DNA of 64,000 nt from Bacteroidota bacterium (GTDB lineage Bacteria > Bacteroidota > Bacteroidia > NS11-12g > UBA9320), in assembly GCA_016124755.1 (NCBI GenBank), contig WGNA01000008.1, forward strand, positions 62,001-126,000, read 5' to 3'. Numbering within the stretch: position 1 is the first letter of the stretch; each line of letters opens with the position of its first letter. The notes below the pieces were generated by a model. The model saw only the letters and a program-made list of their open reading frames with translations. It was not told the origin of the DNA and made no database searches. The position numbers and the translations under genes were made by a program. Below, one piece after another: positions 7,288-46,964 of this stretch.

Positions 7288-7410
7288 ACCAATTCCCCAA
7301 TTTATCCCGACAATGTCAAACCTGCGACTCTTTGGTCTTGATACATATCAAAGGCATTCGCCATTAATTCTTTAATTAACTTAATTCTCTTAATTATTAA
7401 TTAATAAAGA

Positions 7411-37213: not shown

Positions 37214-37430
37214 TTAACCATATAAAAGCAGGATTTATACACCCTCTTATTTGCAGGCTAAATGTCAACTTATGGTGATTGCTTTCCACAAAATGAAAGA
37301 CTTCTTCCACAGTGGTTTTATTAAATTATTGTGAAGATTTTGGAAACTTCCGGCACATCATTCCTTAATGCTAATTCTACGGAGTCGTAACCTGAAAATT
37401 CTCCTTTTGCACCGGTTAAAAAGTAGAAAG

Positions 37431-40400
37431 ATGAAACTAAAAACCTGGCTCCTTTTCGTGGGAATCTCCCTCGGATTCAGCGCTTCGGCGCAAATCAAAT
37501 TCGATCCTAAGATCGATGTAAACTTCCTCTCGGATACGCTCATGCACACGGGAGATCCTCTCAAATTCCAAATCCTTTTTAAGGGTGGATATGATCATGT
37601 ACAAACTACTGCAACGTATGGTCACGCCGCAGACACTGCAATTGCTAAAAGCTGGAACGACTTTATCGGTTTTACACCGGATCCGACCGGTGCAAGTCTT
37701 GGCTGGATTTCCATCAACCACGAAGAAGTTGTATCGAACGACAAAATTGGTGACGGTGGAGGAATGACCGTTTTTCGTGTAAAGAGAGATCCGAACACCG
37801 ACACGCTCATTATTATGGAACAAACCCTTTCTGATGGACGAAAAGGGAAATTTTTTAATGTGGATTTTGCCAACACAACCGGAGAAACCGGAATGAATTG
37901 TGGCGGTATTGTTTCTCAGGTCGACGGAAGAATCTGGACGGCTGAAGAATGGTTCCGGTACAGTAACAAAGACATCGCAGATCGCGATACCAGTGATTTT
38001 ATTATCGGTCAGGGTACCGTGAACGGACAATCATCACCCGCCGGTTTTGCCGGTTACAACGGTGAGCAAATCCAGAAATTCGAGAACTTCAACTACATGG
38101 TGGAAATCGATCCGCGCGAAGCGAAAGCTATTCGCAAACAATACAACTGGGGTCGGCAGAATTTTGAAGGTGGTGTTGTAATGGAAGACAACAAAACCGT
38201 GTACACGGGCGCCGATGCAACTCCGGGATTCTTCACCAAGTTTGTTGCCGATGCCGCCGGTGATTTCACTTCCGGAAAAACGTATGTGTACCGACACATC
38301 GATAGTAATGTGCGAATGACACACTGGTCTTCTCAGCTTGAAACCTATGCCGAAATTTCTGCTTACGACGAGGTGAACGACCGAATTTATTCTACCGAAT
38401 CGAATAACTTCGGAGTTACCGTTTTCTCTCTTAAAAACGGTAGTGTTTCTAAAATTGACTATATTGATCTTAGCGCAAACGGTGCTGCCCCAACTTCGGT
38501 TGCTTGCAATAATGGTGTTCTTGCGGTTGCACTTCCGAACGCAACTAAAACAGATGCAGGAACAGTGAGATTCTACGATAAGGATCTGAAACTTGTTAAA
38601 ACCGTAACCGTTGGTGCGTTGCCGGATATGATCACGTTCACCGGCGATGGAAAATATGTGTTGGTTGCGAACGAGGGTGAACCCAACGACGATTACACAA
38701 TTGATCCGGAAGGAAGCGTATCCGTAATCGATCTTACAAACGGTGTTGCCAATGCAACCGTGATGAATGCAGATTTCAACGGAGTTACAATTCCTGCTGA
38801 TGTTCGCATCTTCGGTAGAAAAGCAGAATCTCAGTCTGAACTTTTTATTTCTGAATACGCAGAAGGTTCATCCAATCACAAATACCTGGAGATTTTTAAT
38901 GCATCAAACCAAACCATCAGTCTCGATAACTATGCTTTCCCGAATACATCAAACGGCGCCACAACCAACGGTGAATACGAATTCTGGAATGCATTTCCAA
39001 CCGGCGCTACTATCGCTCCGGGTAAGACCTACGTAATTGCTCACGGAAGTTCTGATGCTTCGATTTTGGCTAAAACCGATTACCAATTCACTTACCTCAG
39101 CAATGGAAACGATGGTTTCTGTTTAACGAAAGGTGGAACCTGGAACGATGCAAACAGCAACTCTGCGATTGATGCCGGTGAAATGACCGGATTCACTATT
39201 CTTGACTGTGTGGGTGATTGGGGTGCTGATCCGGGTGCTGGTTGGAGTGTCGCCGGTGTATCCGATGCAACCAAAGATCATACACTCGTTCGCAAAGCGG
39301 GCAAAAAAGCAAATGCAGATTGGACAGCTTCAGCGGGAACGAATGCTGACAACAGCGAGTGGATTGTTTTAGATAACAATACATGGACAGATGTAGGAAT
39401 CCGAAAAATGGGTGTTTTCTCAACTCCTCAGCAAGACATTGAGCCGGAATACATCGCCGTAAGCACTGATAATAAAACAGCGTATGTAACGCTTCAGGAA
39501 AACAATGCGATTGCAGTTGTAGATATCGCCACAGCTAAGGTTACCAAAATACTTCCTTTGGGCTATAAAGATCACAGCCTAACTGAAAATTCATTAGATG
39601 CCTCCGACAAGGACAATGCAATCGGAAATGAAAAAACGTATGCAAACCTTAAAGGTATGTATATGCCAGATGCGATTGCTGTTGCCAACATTGGTGGTAA
39701 AGATTATTTATTAACAGCTAATGAAGGTGATTCCAGAGATTACGATGGTTACTCTGAAGAAGCACGGGTTAAAGATTTAACACTCGATCCGACTGCTTTC
39801 CCAAATGCTTCAACCATTCAGGCAGAAGATGCACTCGGCAGATTGAAAACAACTACCAGTATGGGAGATACAGATGGAGACGGAGATTTCGATGTAATTT
39901 ATAGCTACGGCGGACGAAGTTTTTCGATCTGGGATACCGATGGAAATCAGATTTTCGACAGCAAGAATCAGCTTGAAACCATGCTCGCAACCATGTTTGC
40001 AGGAAACTATCCGGCTGATCGTGATGATGATAAAGGAGCTGAACCCGAATCGGTAACGGTGGGTGTAATTGGTTCTAAAACTTTTGCCTTTATTGGTTGT
40101 GAAAGATCTGCAGGCGTATTCGTTTACGACATCACGGATCCGGCAAAGGCTCATTATGTAACGTATTACAACAAAAACGGAAACGACAGAAGCCCGGAAG
40201 GACTCATCTTTATTTCGCGAACTAAATCAGACGACGGAGAAGCGTATCTGATTTCTACTAATGAAGTTATTGATGACTACCACGGTTCCGTTAGCGCCTA
40301 CAGAATCTATGGTCTTGATGGCAAAAACTGGGTTGAGATCAACAACCATGACCTTGACAAAATGCTCAATTTCGATTCAGAATCCGTTAATGTGGGTGCC

Positions 40401-41279
40401 ACTATGTTCAACCGTCTGGAATGGGTAACATACGACACAGACACCAAAGCGGTTTATTTCACTGAAACAGGTCGCGACAATCCGGGAAGTAGCTGGGCAG
40501 ATGACTATGCTAAAGGCGGTCACCACGCAAATCACACACTTGCCAGAGCTGCTGCTCAGGGTGTAAGTGCCAATGATAAAACCTATGTTGACTACTATGG
40601 TCGTGTTTTGAAATACGATCCGGCTACCGAACAAGTAACCGTTCACATCGAAGGCGGTCCGGATTTCGCAACTTCGCCCGACAGTGCAAGCTATCCGAAA
40701 AACCACCTTTCAAATCCGGATGGTATCACAACTATGCACATTAACGGAAGAAGTTATCTGGTGATTTGCGAAGACCTGAATGGTACTTCAGCGGGTCGTG
40801 TTCCAGCCGGAATCACAACGCCTACCTGCGAATTGTATTTGCTGGATCTTACCATTGCAAAACCAACCGTAAATGATTTGGTTCGAATTGCAGTAAGTCC
40901 TTACGGGGCAGAAACTACAGGAGCGTGTCCAACTCCGGATGGAAAAACGCTTTTAGTGAATGCACAGCATCCAAGTACTAAAAATCCGTATCCGTATAAT
41001 TATTCATTAACCTACGCTTTAACAGGTTGGGAACTTGAGAAACATATTTTGGTTGAAGAATTAAAAAAGAAAAATGAGAATTTCATTTTCTATCCAAATC
41101 CGACCAACGGAAAAGTGGTTTTTGAAAAAACTCAGGATGTGGCGGTTTATGATGCAAAAGGAACATTGATTCAGGTGTTTGAACAAACCAATGAAATCGA
41201 TCTTTCTGCCTATGCAAACGGTGTTTATTATTTAAAAAACACTGAGGGAGCTACTAAGAAACTTGTACTCAATAATTAA
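37431..41279 (+). CDS. T9SS-secreted PhoX-like propeller with inserted choice-of-anchor I and lamin-tail domains
   Basis: 1282 residues from ATG 37431 (MKLKTWLLFVGISLGFSASAQ). Residues about 25-300 look like the first half of a PhoX/DUF839 protein (GWISINHEEVVSNDKIGDGGGMTVFRV, WTAEEWF, VEIDPREAKAIRKQYNWGRQNFEGG). At about 310-960 comes a choice-of-anchor I beta-propeller (GTVRFYDKDLKLVKTVTVGALPDMITF, YVLVANEGEPNDDY, LLTANEGDSRDY), itself interrupted at about 470-600 by a lamin-tail domain (LFISEYAEGSSNHKYLEIFN). From about 980 the PhoX half resumes (WVTYDTDTKAVYFTETGRDN, HLSNPDGITT, GAETTGACPTPDGKTLLVNAQHP). The end FYPNPTNGKVVF ... ANGVYYLKNT is a T9SS type A signal. Possible calcium-dependent phosphatase at the surface; activity uncertain. 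Confidence 0.9.
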   Translation: MKLKTWLLFVGISLGFSASAQIKFDPKIDVNFLSDTLMHTGDPLKFQILFKGGYDHVQTTATYGHAADTAIAKSWNDFIGFTPDPTGASLGWISINHEEVVSNDKIGDGGGMTVFRVKRDPNTDTLIIMEQTLSDGRKGKFFNVDFANTTGETGMNCGGIVSQVDGRIWTAEEWFRYSNKDIADRDTSDFIIGQGTVNGQSSPAGFAGYNGEQIQKFENFNYMVEIDPREAKAIRKQYNWGRQNFEGGVVMEDNKTVYTGADATPGFFTKFVADAAGDFTSGKTYVYRHIDSNVRMTHWSSQLETYAEISAYDEVNDRIYSTESNNFGVTVFSLKNGSVSKIDYIDLSANGAAPTSVACNNGVLAVALPNATKTDAGTVRFYDKDLKLVKTVTVGALPDMITFTGDGKYVLVANEGEPNDDYTIDPEGSVSVIDLTNGVANATVMNADFNGVTIPADVRIFGRKAESQSELFISEYAEGSSNHKYLEIFNASNQTISLDNYAFPNTSNGATTNGEYEFWNAFPTGATIAPGKTYVIAHGSSDASILAKTDYQFTYLSNGNDGFCLTKGGTWNDANSNSAIDAGEMTGFTILDCVGDWGADPGAGWSVAGVSDATKDHTLVRKAGKKANADWTASAGTNADNSEWIVLDNNTWTDVGIRKMGVFSTPQQDIEPEYIAVSTDNKTAYVTLQENNAIAVVDIATAKVTKILPLGYKDHSLTENSLDASDKDNAIGNEKTYANLKGMYMPDAIAVANIGGKDYLLTANEGDSRDYDGYSEEARVKDLTLDPTAFPNASTIQAEDALGRLKTTTSMGDTDGDGDFDVIYSYGGRSFSIWDTDGNQIFDSKNQLETMLATMFAGNYPADRDDDKGAEPESVTVGVIGSKTFAFIGCERSAGVFVYDITDPAKAHYVTYYNKNGNDRSPEGLIFISRTKSDDGEAYLISTNEVIDDYHGSVSAYRIYGLDGKNWVEINNHDLDKMLNFDSESVNVGATMFNRLEWVTYDTDTKAVYFTETGRDNPGSSWADDYAKGGHHANHTLARAAAQGVSANDKTYVDYYGRVLKYDPATEQVTVHIEGGPDFATSPDSASYPKNHLSNPDGITTMHINGRSYLVICEDLNGTSAGRVPAGITTPTCELYLLDLTIAKPTVNDLVRIAVSPYGAETTGACPTPDGKTLLVNAQHPSTKNPYPYNYSLTYALTGWELEKHILVEELKKKNENFIFYPNPTNGKVVFEKTQDVAVYDAKGTLIQVFEQTNEIDLSAYANGVYYLKNTEGATKKLVLNN

Positions 41280-41302
41280 TTTTTTCTAATTGTGTCTTTG
41301 GG

Positions 41303-41333
41303 AGCCCCGGTAAGCCGGGGCTTTCCCTTTTTA
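41303..41333 (+). terminator. Rho-independent terminator after the PhoX-like gene
   Basis: AGCCCCGG-TAAG-CCGGGGCT followed by TTCCCTTTTT, 24 bases past the stop. The peroxidase gene begins only 10 bases after it, so read-through would be needed for joint transcription. Confidence 0.85.
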
Positions 41334-41342
41334 TATAAGAGC

Positions 41343-43154
41343 ATGAAAAACGTATTTATCGGTGTGTGTGCCTTGCTGATGGTTTTGTTTACAGCAAAAC
41401 TTTTTAGCTCAGAAGAACCGAACCGTAATGTGAAGAAGCTTTATATCACCAAGCTCGAAGAACTCATTGAATCTTTAGACGCATTGATGAAATCGGTTCA
41501 TTCGGGAAATCCGGATGATCTGAGAAATGCATATTCAGAAAGCCGTAAAAAATTTAAATCGGTTGAGTTTTTAATGGCTCACATAGATCATGAGTTTTAT
41601 TTAAAAAACATAAACGGAGCACCATTACCCAAACTTGAGAAAAATGTACCGGAAAGACGAATTATTGAACCATCCGGATTTCAGGTAATTGATGAATTGA
41701 TTGGTGAAGAGGATTTCGATAAAACCGAATTGTTGAACCACATCGAAAACCTCCGGAACAAAATTCAGGAAATGATTAATTACCAGCGGGCATTTTGGTT
41801 TAACGACGACATTATTGCCAGAGCCGTTCAATATCAACTGATCAGAAATTATGTTTTAGGCGTAACGGGTTTTGATACGCCCGGCACATTACAGGGCATT
41901 GAAGATGCGGCTTCTTCTGTTGCGGGAATTCAGGAATTTATGATGATCTGGAAATCCGATTGGGCTAAAGAAGCCGAAAAAATTAGTTCACAGCAGATTA
42001 AATTTTTAAACAAAAACAACGACTTTAATTCATTCGACAGATTAGAATATTATAAGAAATATTGGCAACCCCATTATTCATTTTGGATTAAAAAATTTAA
42101 AAACTCCGGAGAAGATTTTTGGAAAGAAGTACCGGGAATGCCCATTGAATTGAATGGAAAAAGTGATCACCTGTTTTCATCTGATTTTTTAAATAAGGCC
42201 GCATTTCTGGATTTTGCTTTCTCCGATGTAAATGAGAAATCCATTGCCTTGGGGAAGAGATTGTTCTTTGATCCGGGACTTTCTGCAGATGGAAAAGTTT
42301 CGTGCGGAACCTGTCATCAACCCGGTAAAGGCTATGCCGACGGATTGCCGAAAAGCAGAGCGGGAGACGGAAAGGAATTCGTCGACCGCAATGCACCCGG
42401 ACTTATAAATGCGCTGTACGCCAAAGCTTATTTTTACGATTTGCGCTCCGAACATTTATCGCAGCAGTTTGAACATGTAATTTTTAGTGATCTGGAATTC
42501 AACACTACGCTGATTGATATTTTGAAAAAGCTGCAATCGGATAAAACGTATTATGAAGAATTTAAAAATGCATTTCCGGCACATGCAAATAATCCGGTGA
42601 ATGTTTTCACATTTAAAAGTTCTTTATCGGCATATATCACTTCACTAACCGGTTTTGACAGTGAGTTTGATAAATTCATGCGCGGGGAAAATAAAGGCCT
42701 TAGTATATCTGCCCAACGCGGGTATAATTTATTTATGGGAAAAGCGGCTTGCGGAACGTGTCATTTTGCTCCGACGTTTTCGGGATTGGTGCCTCCGTAT
42801 TTTAATGATTCGGAGAGTGAGGTGTTGGGTGTTCCATCCGACACAACGTATCAAAAACCGGATGCGGACGACGGACGATATAACCGCCGGGTTTTACGCG
42901 AAACCGTTGATTTTTACCGGCACTCGTTTAAGACAACAACGGTTCGCAACACGTCGGTTACCGCTCCGTACATGCACAACGGCGTTTTTTCCAATTACGA
43001 TCAGCTTCTTGAATTTTACAACAACGGAGGAGGAACTGGTCATGGATTAAAAGTGGAATATCAAACCCTTGCCGGCGATAGTTTGCATTTAAATAAGGCA
43101 GAACTAAAAGATATCGAAATGTTTATGCGGTCTCTGGAGTTTGTGCCGGAATGA
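41343..43154 (+). CDS. Di-haem cytochrome c peroxidase with N-terminal helical domain
   Basis: 603 residues from ATG 41343 (MKNVFIGVCALLMVLFTAKLF, signal or anchor). Two haem c sites: CGTCHQPGKGYADG (about residue 320) and CGTCHFAPTFSG (about 470), with the family's LGKRLFFDPGLSADGKVSCGTCH before the first and TVRNTSVTAPYMHNGVFSNYDQLLEFYNNGGG near the end. It is of the CCP/MauG type: periplasmic, reduces peroxide or oxidises a partner. The first ~280 residues are a helical domain rich in Glu/Lys/Ile not found in classical CCP; in Bacteroidota such N-terminal parts resemble imelysin-like helical bundles (inference). Its neighbour is a surface PhoX-like protein, so the two may act on the same envelope process. 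Confidence 0.93.
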   Translation: MKNVFIGVCALLMVLFTAKLFSSEEPNRNVKKLYITKLEELIESLDALMKSVHSGNPDDLRNAYSESRKKFKSVEFLMAHIDHEFYLKNINGAPLPKLEKNVPERRIIEPSGFQVIDELIGEEDFDKTELLNHIENLRNKIQEMINYQRAFWFNDDIIARAVQYQLIRNYVLGVTGFDTPGTLQGIEDAASSVAGIQEFMMIWKSDWAKEAEKISSQQIKFLNKNNDFNSFDRLEYYKKYWQPHYSFWIKKFKNSGEDFWKEVPGMPIELNGKSDHLFSSDFLNKAAFLDFAFSDVNEKSIALGKRLFFDPGLSADGKVSCGTCHQPGKGYADGLPKSRAGDGKEFVDRNAPGLINALYAKAYFYDLRSEHLSQQFEHVIFSDLEFNTTLIDILKKLQSDKTYYEEFKNAFPAHANNPVNVFTFKSSLSAYITSLTGFDSEFDKFMRGENKGLSISAQRGYNLFMGKAACGTCHFAPTFSGLVPPYFNDSESEVLGVPSDTTYQKPDADDGRYNRRVLRETVDFYRHSFKTTTVRNTSVTAPYMHNGVFSNYDQLLEFYNNGGGTGHGLKVEYQTLAGDSLHLNKAELKDIEMFMRSLEFVPE

Positions 43155-43183: not shown

Positions 43184-43483
43184 TTATGCCAAATCTCTTT
43201 CTACTGAAGTTATTCGATCTAGTTCTGATTCCTTTAACCGTTTTTCTTCTTCAATATCATAATCGTGCTGAAGTCCCAACCAGAATTTAGCTGAGGTTCC
43301 AAAATATTTTTGTAGTCGTAAGGCTGTGTTTGCTGTAATTCTGCGTTTGCCTTTAATGATCTGACTGATTCATGTTTGTGGAATAAATATATCTTTTGCC
43401 AGTTTGTAGGCCGAAATACCCAATGGGCTCAAAAACTCTTCTGTAAGAACCTCTCTCGGGTGAATATTTTTTAGCTTGTTCAT
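43184..43483 (-). pseudogene. higA: HigA-type antitoxin remnant, one in-frame stop
   Basis: Translating the minus strand from ATG 43483 gives MNKLKNIHPREVLTEEFLSP, then LGISAYKLAKDIFIPQT, a TGA at 43372-43370, and then ISQIIKGKRRITANTALRL, QKYFGTSAKFWLGLQHDYDI and so on to a TAA at 43184. This is a complete 99-codon HigA (XRE-family antitoxin) except for the TGA, at a place where family members have Arg in RISQIIKGKRRIT; CGA to TGA is a single transition. HigA binds its operator and neutralises HigB. With HigB also broken, selection to keep the antitoxin is gone. Confidence 0.88.
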
Positions 43484-43495
43484 TTTAATTTCTAT

Positions 43496-43780
43496 TTAGT
43501 GATAATCGGTTATTTCAACTTGAAACGCAATACCTTCATACCATTTGAATATTATTCTCCACTGTTGATTATCTCCGATACTGTAGAATTCGTTTAGGTT
43601 TCCCATTAACCTCTAAAGTCGGTTTGCCGGAGGAACTCTGAGGTCATTTATGTTTTGTGAATTATTAATCATCCTCAATTTACGTCTGGCCTTATTCTGA
43701 ATTTCAAATGGTAATTTTCGAGAGATTTCTTCATCCTATATCTTTTCGGTTTCCCTATCTCTAAAAGGCAATATTACTAT
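43496..43780 (-). pseudogene. higB: HigB-type toxin remnant, two in-frame stops and no start codon
   Basis: The minus strand reads ILPFRDRETEKI, stop, DEEISRKLPFEIQNKARRKL, RMINNSQNINDLRVPPANRL, stop, RLMGNLNEFYSIGDNQQWRI, IFKWYEGIAFQVEITDYH, then the natural TAA at 43498-43496. This is the RelE-superfamily HigB mRNA interferase along its full length; the stops (TAG, TAG) replace a likely Trp and Glu. No ATG is left at the front. It ends 12 bases before the higA start, the normal higBA order. Confidence 0.85.
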
Positions 43781-43923: not shown

Positions 43924-44496
43924 ATGGCATTCGATAATCTCGTCGGACTTTTTCGGCAGTATGTGAATTTTAGTGAAGAGGAGTTATCTTCTTTTACGGC
44001 TTGTTTGGTTCGAAAGGAGTACAAGCGCAATCAGATTATTTTAGAGGAAGGTGCGGTTGAAAAATGTCTGAGATTTATTGATTCCGGAATTTGCCGTCAG
44101 TACATTTTTAAAAACGGAGATGCGTACACCGTGAATCTTTGTCTTCAACATAATTTTTCATCTTCATACGGCTCTTTCACACAACAATCACCTTCCCGAA
44201 TGGGGATTTCAGCGATTACGGATGTAGTGGCCTGGGAAATTTCCCATCAGGATTTAAGTGAATTATACAACATGTCAAAAGAAGGGGAACGAATGGGGCG
44301 ACTTGCAGCCGAGGAATTATTCGCCGAAGCAGAAGATAAAGTGCTCGATCTGCTCGGTAAAACGGCATTAGAGCGGTATCAGGAATTACTTGACAATGAC
44401 CCAAAACTACTCACCAAAATTCCACAGAAATACATAGCGGAATATCTCGGGATGTCACCTGAATCGCTCAGCCGCTTAAAACACGCAATTGTTTAA
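43924..44496 (+). CDS. Crp/Fnr-family transcriptional regulator
   Basis: 190 residues from ATG 43924 (MAFDNLVGLFRQYVNFSEEEL); an upstream ATG would add 15 residues outside the fold. N-terminal cyclic-nucleotide-binding-type barrel (VRKEYKRNQIILEEGAVEKCLRFIDSGICRQYIFKNGDAYTVNLC) and C-terminal helix-turn-helix (KIPQKYIAEYLGMSPESLSRLKHAIV). The recognition helix has E-S-L-S-R, the E..SR arrangement that in E. coli Fnr reads TTGAT. No N-terminal cysteine cluster, so it is not an Fe-S FNR; the ligand is unknown. A perfect TTGAT-N4-ATCAA site lies 14 bases past its stop, before the TonB receptor gene, which is its likely target. Confidence 0.9.
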   Translation: MAFDNLVGLFRQYVNFSEEELSSFTACLVRKEYKRNQIILEEGAVEKCLRFIDSGICRQYIFKNGDAYTVNLCLQHNFSSSYGSFTQQSPSRMGISAITDVVAWEISHQDLSELYNMSKEGERMGRLAAEELFAEAEDKVLDLLGKTALERYQELLDNDPKLLTKIPQKYIAEYLGMSPESLSRLKHAIV

Positions 44497-44509: not shown

Positions 44510-44523
44510 TTGATATAGATCAA
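44510..44523 (+). promoter_or_regulatory. FNR-type operator upstream of TonB receptor gene
   Basis: TTGATATAGATCAA is a perfect TTGAT-N4-ATCAA palindrome. Its centre is 42 bases upstream of the receptor's start codon; if transcription starts near the ATG (a TACTTTG sits at 44548-44554) the site would be near -41.5, the class II activator position. The adjacent Crp/Fnr gene supplies a candidate regulator. Confidence 0.6.
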
Positions 44524-44558
44524 TGTCTCCACCGGATTGGACTTTTTTACTTTGCTGC

Positions 44559-46964
44559 ATGAAAAAAGCCCGATTCATTCTGTTGACTCTTCTTGTTTTA
44601 TTAATTCAGTTACCGGTTCTGAATGCACAAGGTCTTAAACAAACCGTTCGCGGAGTTGTGAAAGATGCCGTTTCTAAACAAGCGCTTTCCGGAGCAACGA
44701 TTTTGGTTAAAAACGATGCACATCAATACGGTTCTATTACGGATGAAAACGGAGCATACTCGATTCCGGATGTTGAAATCGGCCGTTACGATATTGTTTG
44801 TCAGTATGTGGGTTACGAAGAACGCGCCTTATTTCAGGTGGAAGTTACAGCGACAAAAGAAGTGGTTTTGAATTTCGACATGACCGAAGATCTCGCGACT
44901 TTGGGTGTGGCGGAAATCAAATTGAGAAAAGATAAGAGCAAAACAATTAATTCGGATATACGGGTTAGCGGTCGCACATTTTCCATTGAAGAATCGCAGC
45001 GATATGCCGGAAGCAGGGGAGACGTGGCGCGGATGGCGCAGAACTTTGCCGGGGTTCAGGGCGCGAACGACAGCCGAAACGACATCATTGTACGAGGGAA
45101 TTCCCCGATGGGCGTTTTGTATCGGTTGGAAGGAATCGACATCCCGAATCCGAATCACTTTTCTTCTTCGGGAACAACCGGTGGACCGGTGAGCATGCTC
45201 AATAACAATGTTTTATTAAACTCGGATTTTATTTCCGGAGCGTTCCCGGCGGAATACGGAAATGCGAATGCGGCTGTTTTTGATTTGGGAGTTCGGGAAG
45301 GAAATAATGAGAAATACGAATTCCTCGGTCAGATTGGTTTTGCCGGATTTGAAGGCATGGCGGAAGGCCCGTTTAAAAAAGGAAAACAAGCTTCTTTTCT
45401 GATTGATTACCGATATTCATTTTTGGGATTACTCGCTACGATGGGTGTTAATTTTGGCACCGGGGCGGCCATTCCCAAGTATCAGGATTTAACCGTTAAA
45501 CTCAATTTCCCTGATAAACATGGATACACTTCTTTGTTTGCATTAGGTGGAATGAGTCGTATTAAAATATTTCAAAGCGAGCAAACGGGAGATAATTTGT
45601 ACCGCGATGGACAAGAAGATTTAACGTACCGAACGAAAACCGGTGTTGTTGGTTTAACACGGTATCAGCAAATCGGAACAAAAAGCAATATCAAATTTAT
45701 TCTTGCGGTGGATGGTTCTTATACCCGCACCCAACTCGATACTTTTGCATGGAGTACAAACAATGAAATTATAAATTATTCGGGTCGCTACCGGGATGGA
45801 TCATCACAAGGTAAATACAGTTTAAATGTAATTTATACGCACAAGTTTAATGCGAAAGCTTCCATGTCGGCCGGTACCCGTTTGTACGAATATTTCTTTA
45901 ATCTGGAAGACAGTTTTTTTCGTTCTGATCTCAATCGCTGGGTACAGCCGACTAATTTTAATGGAAATACTACTTTATCGCAGACATTCACCAGTTTGAG
46001 TTACCGATTCGGTCCGAGATTAAAAATGAATACCGGAATTAATTACGCATACTTTTTTTATAATAATTCTCAATCATTAGAACCCAGAATTGGCCTCAGT
46101 TATAAAGTGAACGGCCGTTATCAGATAAGTGCCGGAAGTGGTTTACATAGTCAGGTGGTGCCTTTCCGGGTGTATTATGAAAAGTTTACCGATGATTACG
46201 GCCATCAATACACTGCCAATCAGGATGTCACACTTATGAGAAGTTTGCATTTTGTTTTGAGTCATGACGTATCGATTAACAGGAATTCCAGATTAAAGAT
46301 AGAAACCTATTATCAGCATTTATTTAATATTCCAGTTGATAGAGGAGATTGGCCTTCGTATTCAATGCTCAATCAGGGGACGGATTTCGGAGTACAATTC
46401 ACCGATAGTTTGGTGAATAAAGGAACCGGACGTAATTACGGAATTGAATTCACGTTAGAGCGATTTTTATCGAAAGGATTTTATTTCTTAAACACCATTT
46501 CGTTATACCGATCGCTTTATACAGATTATACCGGAGCAGAGCATTCAACTGCATTCGATGGGAAATATGCGATGAATCTCTTGGGCGGAAAAGAATTTTA
46601 TTTCAAACAACGCGAAACCAAATCCGGGTTTAAAAAACCGAGTCTTACGGTTGATATTAAAGCGATGATCAATGGCGGAAAGCGCTATACTCCCATTGAT
46701 GTTTCAAAAAGTGTGGAGCAGGTAAAGACAGTTTACACAGACGATATTTACGGTGCGAAATACAAGGATTACACACGTCTGGATATTCGGATTGCCTATA
46801 AAGTTCAAACCAAAAAAATCACACAGGAGTGGGGAATCGATATTCAAAATGTTACGAATCACCAGAATATTTTTACCCAGCGATTTGATCCGGCAACCGG
46901 TAAAACCTATTATTCGTATCAAACCGGAATTTTGCCAATCGGGATTTATCGGGCAACATTTTAA
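44559..46964 (+). CDS. TonB-dependent outer membrane receptor
   Basis: 801 residues from ATG 44559 (MKKARFILLTLLVLLIQLPVLNAQ, signal peptide). Residues about 28-110 form the carboxypeptidase-regulatory-like domain typical of Bacteroidota receptors (VRGVVKDAVSKQALSGATILVKN, TDENGAYSIPDVEIGRYDIV). A plug follows (VQGANDSRNDIIVRGNSPMGVLYRLEGIDIPNPNHF ... PAEYGNANAAVFDLGVREGN) and a beta-barrel to the C-terminal aromatic (GIYRATF). No SusD partner is nearby, so it is not a classic glycan uptake pair; metal-chelate or peptide uptake is possible. Transcription probably depends on the Crp/Fnr regulator encoded just upstream. A MITE-like element begins 6 bases after the stop. Confidence 0.94.
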   Translation: MKKARFILLTLLVLLIQLPVLNAQGLKQTVRGVVKDAVSKQALSGATILVKNDAHQYGSITDENGAYSIPDVEIGRYDIVCQYVGYEERALFQVEVTATKEVVLNFDMTEDLATLGVAEIKLRKDKSKTINSDIRVSGRTFSIEESQRYAGSRGDVARMAQNFAGVQGANDSRNDIIVRGNSPMGVLYRLEGIDIPNPNHFSSSGTTGGPVSMLNNNVLLNSDFISGAFPAEYGNANAAVFDLGVREGNNEKYEFLGQIGFAGFEGMAEGPFKKGKQASFLIDYRYSFLGLLATMGVNFGTGAAIPKYQDLTVKLNFPDKHGYTSLFALGGMSRIKIFQSEQTGDNLYRDGQEDLTYRTKTGVVGLTRYQQIGTKSNIKFILAVDGSYTRTQLDTFAWSTNNEIINYSGRYRDGSSQGKYSLNVIYTHKFNAKASMSAGTRLYEYFFNLEDSFFRSDLNRWVQPTNFNGNTTLSQTFTSLSYRFGPRLKMNTGINYAYFFYNNSQSLEPRIGLSYKVNGRYQISAGSGLHSQVVPFRVYYEKFTDDYGHQYTANQDVTLMRSLHFVLSHDVSINRNSRLKIETYYQHLFNIPVDRGDWPSYSMLNQGTDFGVQFTDSLVNKGTGRNYGIEFTLERFLSKGFYFLNTISLYRSLYTDYTGAEHSTAFDGKYAMNLLGGKEFYFKQRETKSGFKKPSLTVDIKAMINGGKRYTPIDVSKSVEQVKTVYTDDIYGAKYKDYTRLDIRIAYKVQTKKITQEWGIDIQNVTNHQNIFTQRFDPATGKTYYSYQTGILPIGIYRATF

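Follow-up and report, generated by a model that had tools for sequence, protein, structure and literature searches.

The question raised by this locus is whether a short Crp/Fnr-type gene controls the TonB receptor gene that follows it through the FNR-like palindrome lying between the two, and whether such an arrangement is particular to this locus or belongs to a wider pattern among the Bacteroidota. The window, i.e., the whole stretch of 64,000 nt that was analysed (C29:62001-126000), comes from a genome of 4.05 Mb in 39 contigs and holds the following features.

43924..44496, + strand: Crp/Fnr-superfamily regulator, 190 aa, wingless (profile search, family alignment, nearest structure 3dn7)
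44449..44472, + strand: recognition helix SPESLSRL (approximate codons), carrying the Glu that co-varies with the site (sequence and covariation)
44510..44523, + strand: candidate operator TTGATATAGATCAA, TTGAT-ATAG-ATCAA, preceded by the ATTTC flank of the family (sequence)
44547..44554, + strand: putative -7 element TTACTTTG, one mismatch to TAnnTTTG (sequence; consensus and position from PMC9723704; spacing statistics)
44559..46964, + strand: TonB-dependent-receptor-like gene, 801 aa, proposed target (CarboxypepD_reg, Plug, orthologues adjoining regulators)

The receptor product gave a clear CarboxypepD_reg match (58.4 bits), a Plug match below the cut-off (17.5 bits) and no PDB match by sequence. 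Its ATG at 44559 opens what looks by eye like a signal peptide (MKKARFILLTLLVLLIQLPVLNAQ); another in-frame ATG (44523) shares one base, the last, with the box and is unlikely to be the start. No further gene on the same strand lies close downstream of the receptor.

On the other side of the regulator, fragments named by eye as resembling a HigB/HigA toxin-antitoxin pair occupy 43184-43735 on the minus strand, and this module looks decayed because the HigA-like antitoxin frame is broken by a stop codon and the HigB-like toxin part is split over frames. Farther away are a di-haem cytochrome c peroxidase (41292-43154; MauG type in its C-terminal half, extended at the N-terminus by a long helical stretch) and, directly before it, a choice-of-anchor I/PhoX-like protein bearing a type IX secretion tail (37368-41279).

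The regulator, the box and the promoter

Starting at ATG 43924, the regulator contains a cNMP-type beta-barrel sensor domain (cNMP_binding, PF00027, 38.2 bits against a cut-off of 27.5), followed by a helix-turn-helix whose profile match falls just below the cut-off and covers only positions 18-42 of 70 (HTH_Crp_2, PF13545, 22.6 bits against 27); we count the latter as Crp-type because solved FNR and the family profile can be aligned through the helix. Two claims of the original prediction hold up in the translation: the recognition helix reads SPESLSRL, and the Fe-S cysteines are missing, with zero Cys in residues 1-26 where FNR would carry its [4Fe-4S] ligands. The four Cys that the protein does have sit in the barrel and are not common to its relatives in the alignment. 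The C-terminus lies 8 residues beyond the SR of the recognition helix, leaving the protein without the wing (beta-hairpin), and the same ending is seen in 16 of 16 aligned relatives. Lacking both the cluster cysteines and FNR's DNA-binding wing, the regulator is not an FNR orthologue. The cAMP contacts of CRP, Glu72 and Arg82, are also replaced in the family, as judged by profile alignment only. That is, on its sequence the protein is best described as a superfamily member that is neither FNR nor CRP, and its signal would not be oxygen sensed by way of an FNR-type cluster; the lost contact residues argue against cAMP too. A search of GTDB contigs found no close orthologue of the protein, nor any closer relative with the exact gene pair.

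The perfect TTGAT-N4-ATCAA that had been placed about 42 bases before the receptor start is present at 44510-44523, between the stop codon of the regulator (TAA, 44494-44496) and the receptor ATG, 13 nt past the former and with its centre 42.5 nt before the A of the latter. A pattern search returned 3 exact copies of TTGATN4ATCAA in the window and 19 in the genome, compared with ~9.8 expected from base composition and 4 for a reversed-pattern control, and 12 of the 19 fall within long ORFs; we therefore rejected the bare copy count as evidence. Another exact intergenic copy in the window (TTGATACATATCAA, 7338-7351) is 229 nt from the nearest long ORF and lacks the TTTG spacing. The significance of the box comes instead from its position: TTGAYN4RTCAA followed by TTTG at class II spacing has only 5 matches in 4.05 Mb, and the reversed control has 0. 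The sequence of the box is not significant by itself and becomes so once combined with position.

The position taken by class II activators is known for CRP and FNR. Here, the G of TTACTTTG comes 31 nt after the end of the box. When the A of the receptor ATG is taken as +1, the box centre falls at -42.5 and the -7 element at exactly -12 to -5, the location of the Bacteroidota -7 element TAnnTTTG in Flavobacterium psychrophilum (PMC9723704). With the start site placed in this way, relative to the -7 element, the spacing would correspond to class II activator geometry, and box and spacing together give the FNR-type combination of TTGAT-N4-ATCAA at the class II position. A +1 at the A of the ATG also predicts a leaderless receptor mRNA, and the promoter geometry makes such a transcript probable; leaderless mRNAs make up 5.5% of mRNAs in F. 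psychrophilum (PMC9723704). Inspection of the sequence upstream of the receptor revealed no evident -33 element (no TTG at -33), and a sigma-70 scan gave background only, as expected for this phylum.

Spacing in the wider family and in related genomes

The same geometry was assessed in a sample of 139 distinct family regulators with their downstream DNA, drawn from the order, the class and the phylum. For every TTTG within 180 nt past the gene, each upstream 14-mer was scored for palindromicity, with no consensus base assumed. Perfect palindromes numbered 12 at 30 nt and 10 at 31 nt before TTTG, compared with at most 3 at each of 42 other offsets, and arms with at least four of five pairs matched peaked at the same two offsets (31 and 45, respectively; at most 15 elsewhere). 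These peaks show that the layout of regulator, class II site and target gene is a property of the family, and both the layout and the match between protein and site recur across the whole phylum.

Within the genome studied here, three of the five spaced-box matches adjoin short Crp/Fnr genes, namely the window locus and those on contigs C12 and C21. The C12 site overlaps the stop codon of its regulator; the gene that it precedes looks DinB-like, and the pair of regulator and gene recurs in another genome (L154) with TTGACTTCAATCAA. The C21 site precedes a neighbouring gene on the opposite strand. A fourth short paralogue (C18) has AAC-ATTT-GTTATC at the corresponding place. Of the two remaining matches, one lies within coding DNA and in the other (C20:247552-247596, L119), TTGATCTAAATCAA carries the ATTTC flank, has a perfect TACTTTTG spaced as at the window locus, and adjoins no regulator. 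A 331-aa gene that resembles short-chain dehydrogenases begins 57 nt downstream of this C20 box and represents a candidate second target in trans. A gene 25% identical to that 331-aa gene comes after a regulator in L062. Across 39 related genomes, nine pattern matches start no more than ~40 nt downstream of where a Crp/Fnr match ends (G020 C116 and C124; G009 C39, C72 and C76; G017 C5; G039 C3; G000 C12 and C29).

The pairing of regulator and receptor is found elsewhere as well. In the sister genus g14, receptors 42-45% identical to that of the window follow a short Crp/Fnr gene (L093, L094, L096, L097, L098, L100 and L101), with TTAAC-N4-GTTAA or a one-mismatch form of it located 30 nt from TTTG and with TTTG-N4-ATG kept; further pairs occur in other families (L069, L137 and L186). 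Loss of the site in relatives with the same gene pair had been named as one refuting condition, and the outcome is divided: the palindrome is kept at the same place, but its sequence differs (TTAAC-N4-GTTAA), even with a KPESLSR helix. A quick tree separates the regulators of the two receptor-pair sets, and AU tests did not reject a single clade (p 0.85 with the quick tree, 0.39 with the careful one), so that the two sets may share one origin. The nearest receptors, at 58-61% identity, have no adjoining regulator. One of them (L089, a G005 receptor, 59% identical) retains TTTG-N4-ATG and shows upstream an ATCAATG stretch whose distance to the G is ~28 nt instead of 31.

Recognition helix and half-site sequence

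According to the original prediction, the E..SR residues of the helix read TTGAT, and protein and site predict each other. Site calls made without the tested base were available for 90 regulators, a few evidently chance calls (e.g., L047, L048 and L083) being retained in the statistics; the tested helix residue is the one aligned with the Glu of FNR, Glu209 in E. coli. With the helix Glu present, 27 of 35 regulators have C at position 12 of the site; without it, 1 of 55 does (Fisher p 8e-15, inflated by relatedness among the 90 regulators). A quick tree offered only 3 supported independent pairs and left the test without power, whereas the careful, maximum-likelihood tree gave 8 independent Glu-differing pairs, of which 5.7 on average changed in the same direction and 0 in the opposite one (tree-controlled sign test, median p 0.031). 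In a mutual-information scan, the residue at the Glu position with site positions 13 and 12 ranked highest.

Typical sites differ between helices: TTGACTTTGGTCAA for PETLSR..RARK, TTAACCCNNGTTCATTG for PQALSR, (A/T)TAACATTTGTTAT for PVHLSR, and TTAACATAGATCAA or TTGAT/ATCAA for PESLSR. The nearest rows of the tree, with PETLSR/AETLSR helices (L196, L007 and L154), likewise carry TTGAT/ATCAA-type boxes. In contrast, the helix Ser and Arg do not vary within the family and are found alongside TTAAC/GTTCA, TTAAC/GTTAA and ATAAC/GTTAT sites alike; being invariant, they cannot explain the choice of site. Mutual prediction thus survives for Glu, which predicts C/G at the third half-site position among the 90 homologues, and not for Ser/Arg, so that the reading of TTGAT by E..SR has to be reduced to one informative residue acting on part of the half-site. 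Moreover, three g14 regulators with KPESLSR, i.e., sharing Glu, Ser and Arg with the window regulator, have a TTAAC/GTTAA site, which means that the code is incomplete.

With this proviso, we lean toward the view that the wingless, cluster-free Crp/Fnr class consists of one-gene local switches phylum-wide, each adjoining its target and using a fixed class II site, with the helix partly predicting the site (a TTGA half for Glu, GTTCA for Gln and GTTAT for Val-His); the targets and sites of many uncharacterised Bacteroidota regulators would then be predictable from sequence.

Proposed mechanism, alternatives and known systems

Taking the computed site, its geometry, the family recurrence and the Glu-base covariation as the starting point, we consider it likely that the regulator works locally, activating transcription of the downstream receptor gene via the box. 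Specifically, a regulator dimer would bind TTGAT-N4-ATCAA, centred at about -42.5 if transcription starts at the A of the receptor ATG, with the helix Glu reading the G:C pair at half-site position 3. The bound dimer would engage RNA polymerase as class II activators do, and this contact may compensate for a poor promoter that has a one-mismatch -7 element and no evident -33 element. The sensor domain would answer a signal other than cluster-borne oxygen or cAMP.

The same regulator and site could instead serve repression, with the protein blocking the receptor promoter until its signal arrives. The box does lie directly upstream of the promoter core, and the computed results are silent on the sign of regulation; however, the centre is kept within one base family-wide, at -41.5/-42.5, a precision required for direct contact with polymerase but not for steric blocking, and the imperfect -7 element and missing TTG at -33 also speak against repression. 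Hence, we regard repression as unlikely, yet as the most credible of the alternatives.

It is less probable still that the box is used mainly by another paralogue, such as that of C12 or C21, or is shared among paralogues. These two have PETLSR/AESLSR helices and nearly identical boxes beside their own genes, and the C20 box shows that the geometry can occur with no regulator adjoining, but every short paralogue has an adjacent site of its own, and in the family as a whole gene and site as a rule lie side by side. A chance palindrome without function would fit the 19 exact genome copies and the 12 of these inside ORFs; it is the least plausible reading by far given the position relative to TTTG, the ATTTC flank, the matching helix and the family recurrence. 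Local activation of the receptor gene thus remains the reading that we favor.

Bacteroidota genomes contain many short Crp/Fnr genes without a known target, site or signal, and the layout described here offers each of them a likely target, a likely site and a testable protein-DNA code. At the window locus itself, a TonB receptor gains a named regulator and a putative promoter, with an mRNA predicted to begin at the start codon. No description of this layout of regulator, class II site and target was found in the searchable literature, subscription journals being mostly outside its reach.

Among known systems, HcpR, PgRsp and CrpPg of Porphyromonas gingivalis belong to the same superfamily and come from the same phylum. 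HcpR and PgRsp are reported to bind heme, and CrpPg to be cAMP-independent and unclassified (PMC12040651); the CrpPg structure 2gau matches the family profile weakly and in the sensor part only (E 4e-5). FNR (E. coli, Aliivibrio fischeri) shares with the window regulator the superfamily, the E..SR helix, aligned with LGLTVETISRL of solved FNR (5cvr group), and a TTGAT-N4-ATCAA box at the class II position, but the window regulator lacks the N-terminal cluster cysteines and the wing after the recognition helix and would serve a local single target as opposed to the global regulon of FNR. E. coli CRP has a related sensor domain (1g6n and others) and supplies the model of class II activation applied here, whereas its GELGLF..ERSA aligns with SSYdSFltqtPS, so that the cAMP contacts are not kept, and its half-site is TGTGA rather than TTGAT. 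The best solved relative is 3dn7 ('cyclic nucleotide binding regulatory protein'), which, at 194 residues, aligns end to end and likewise has no wing, and differs in its helix, PEYLSEIRK, which is without SR.
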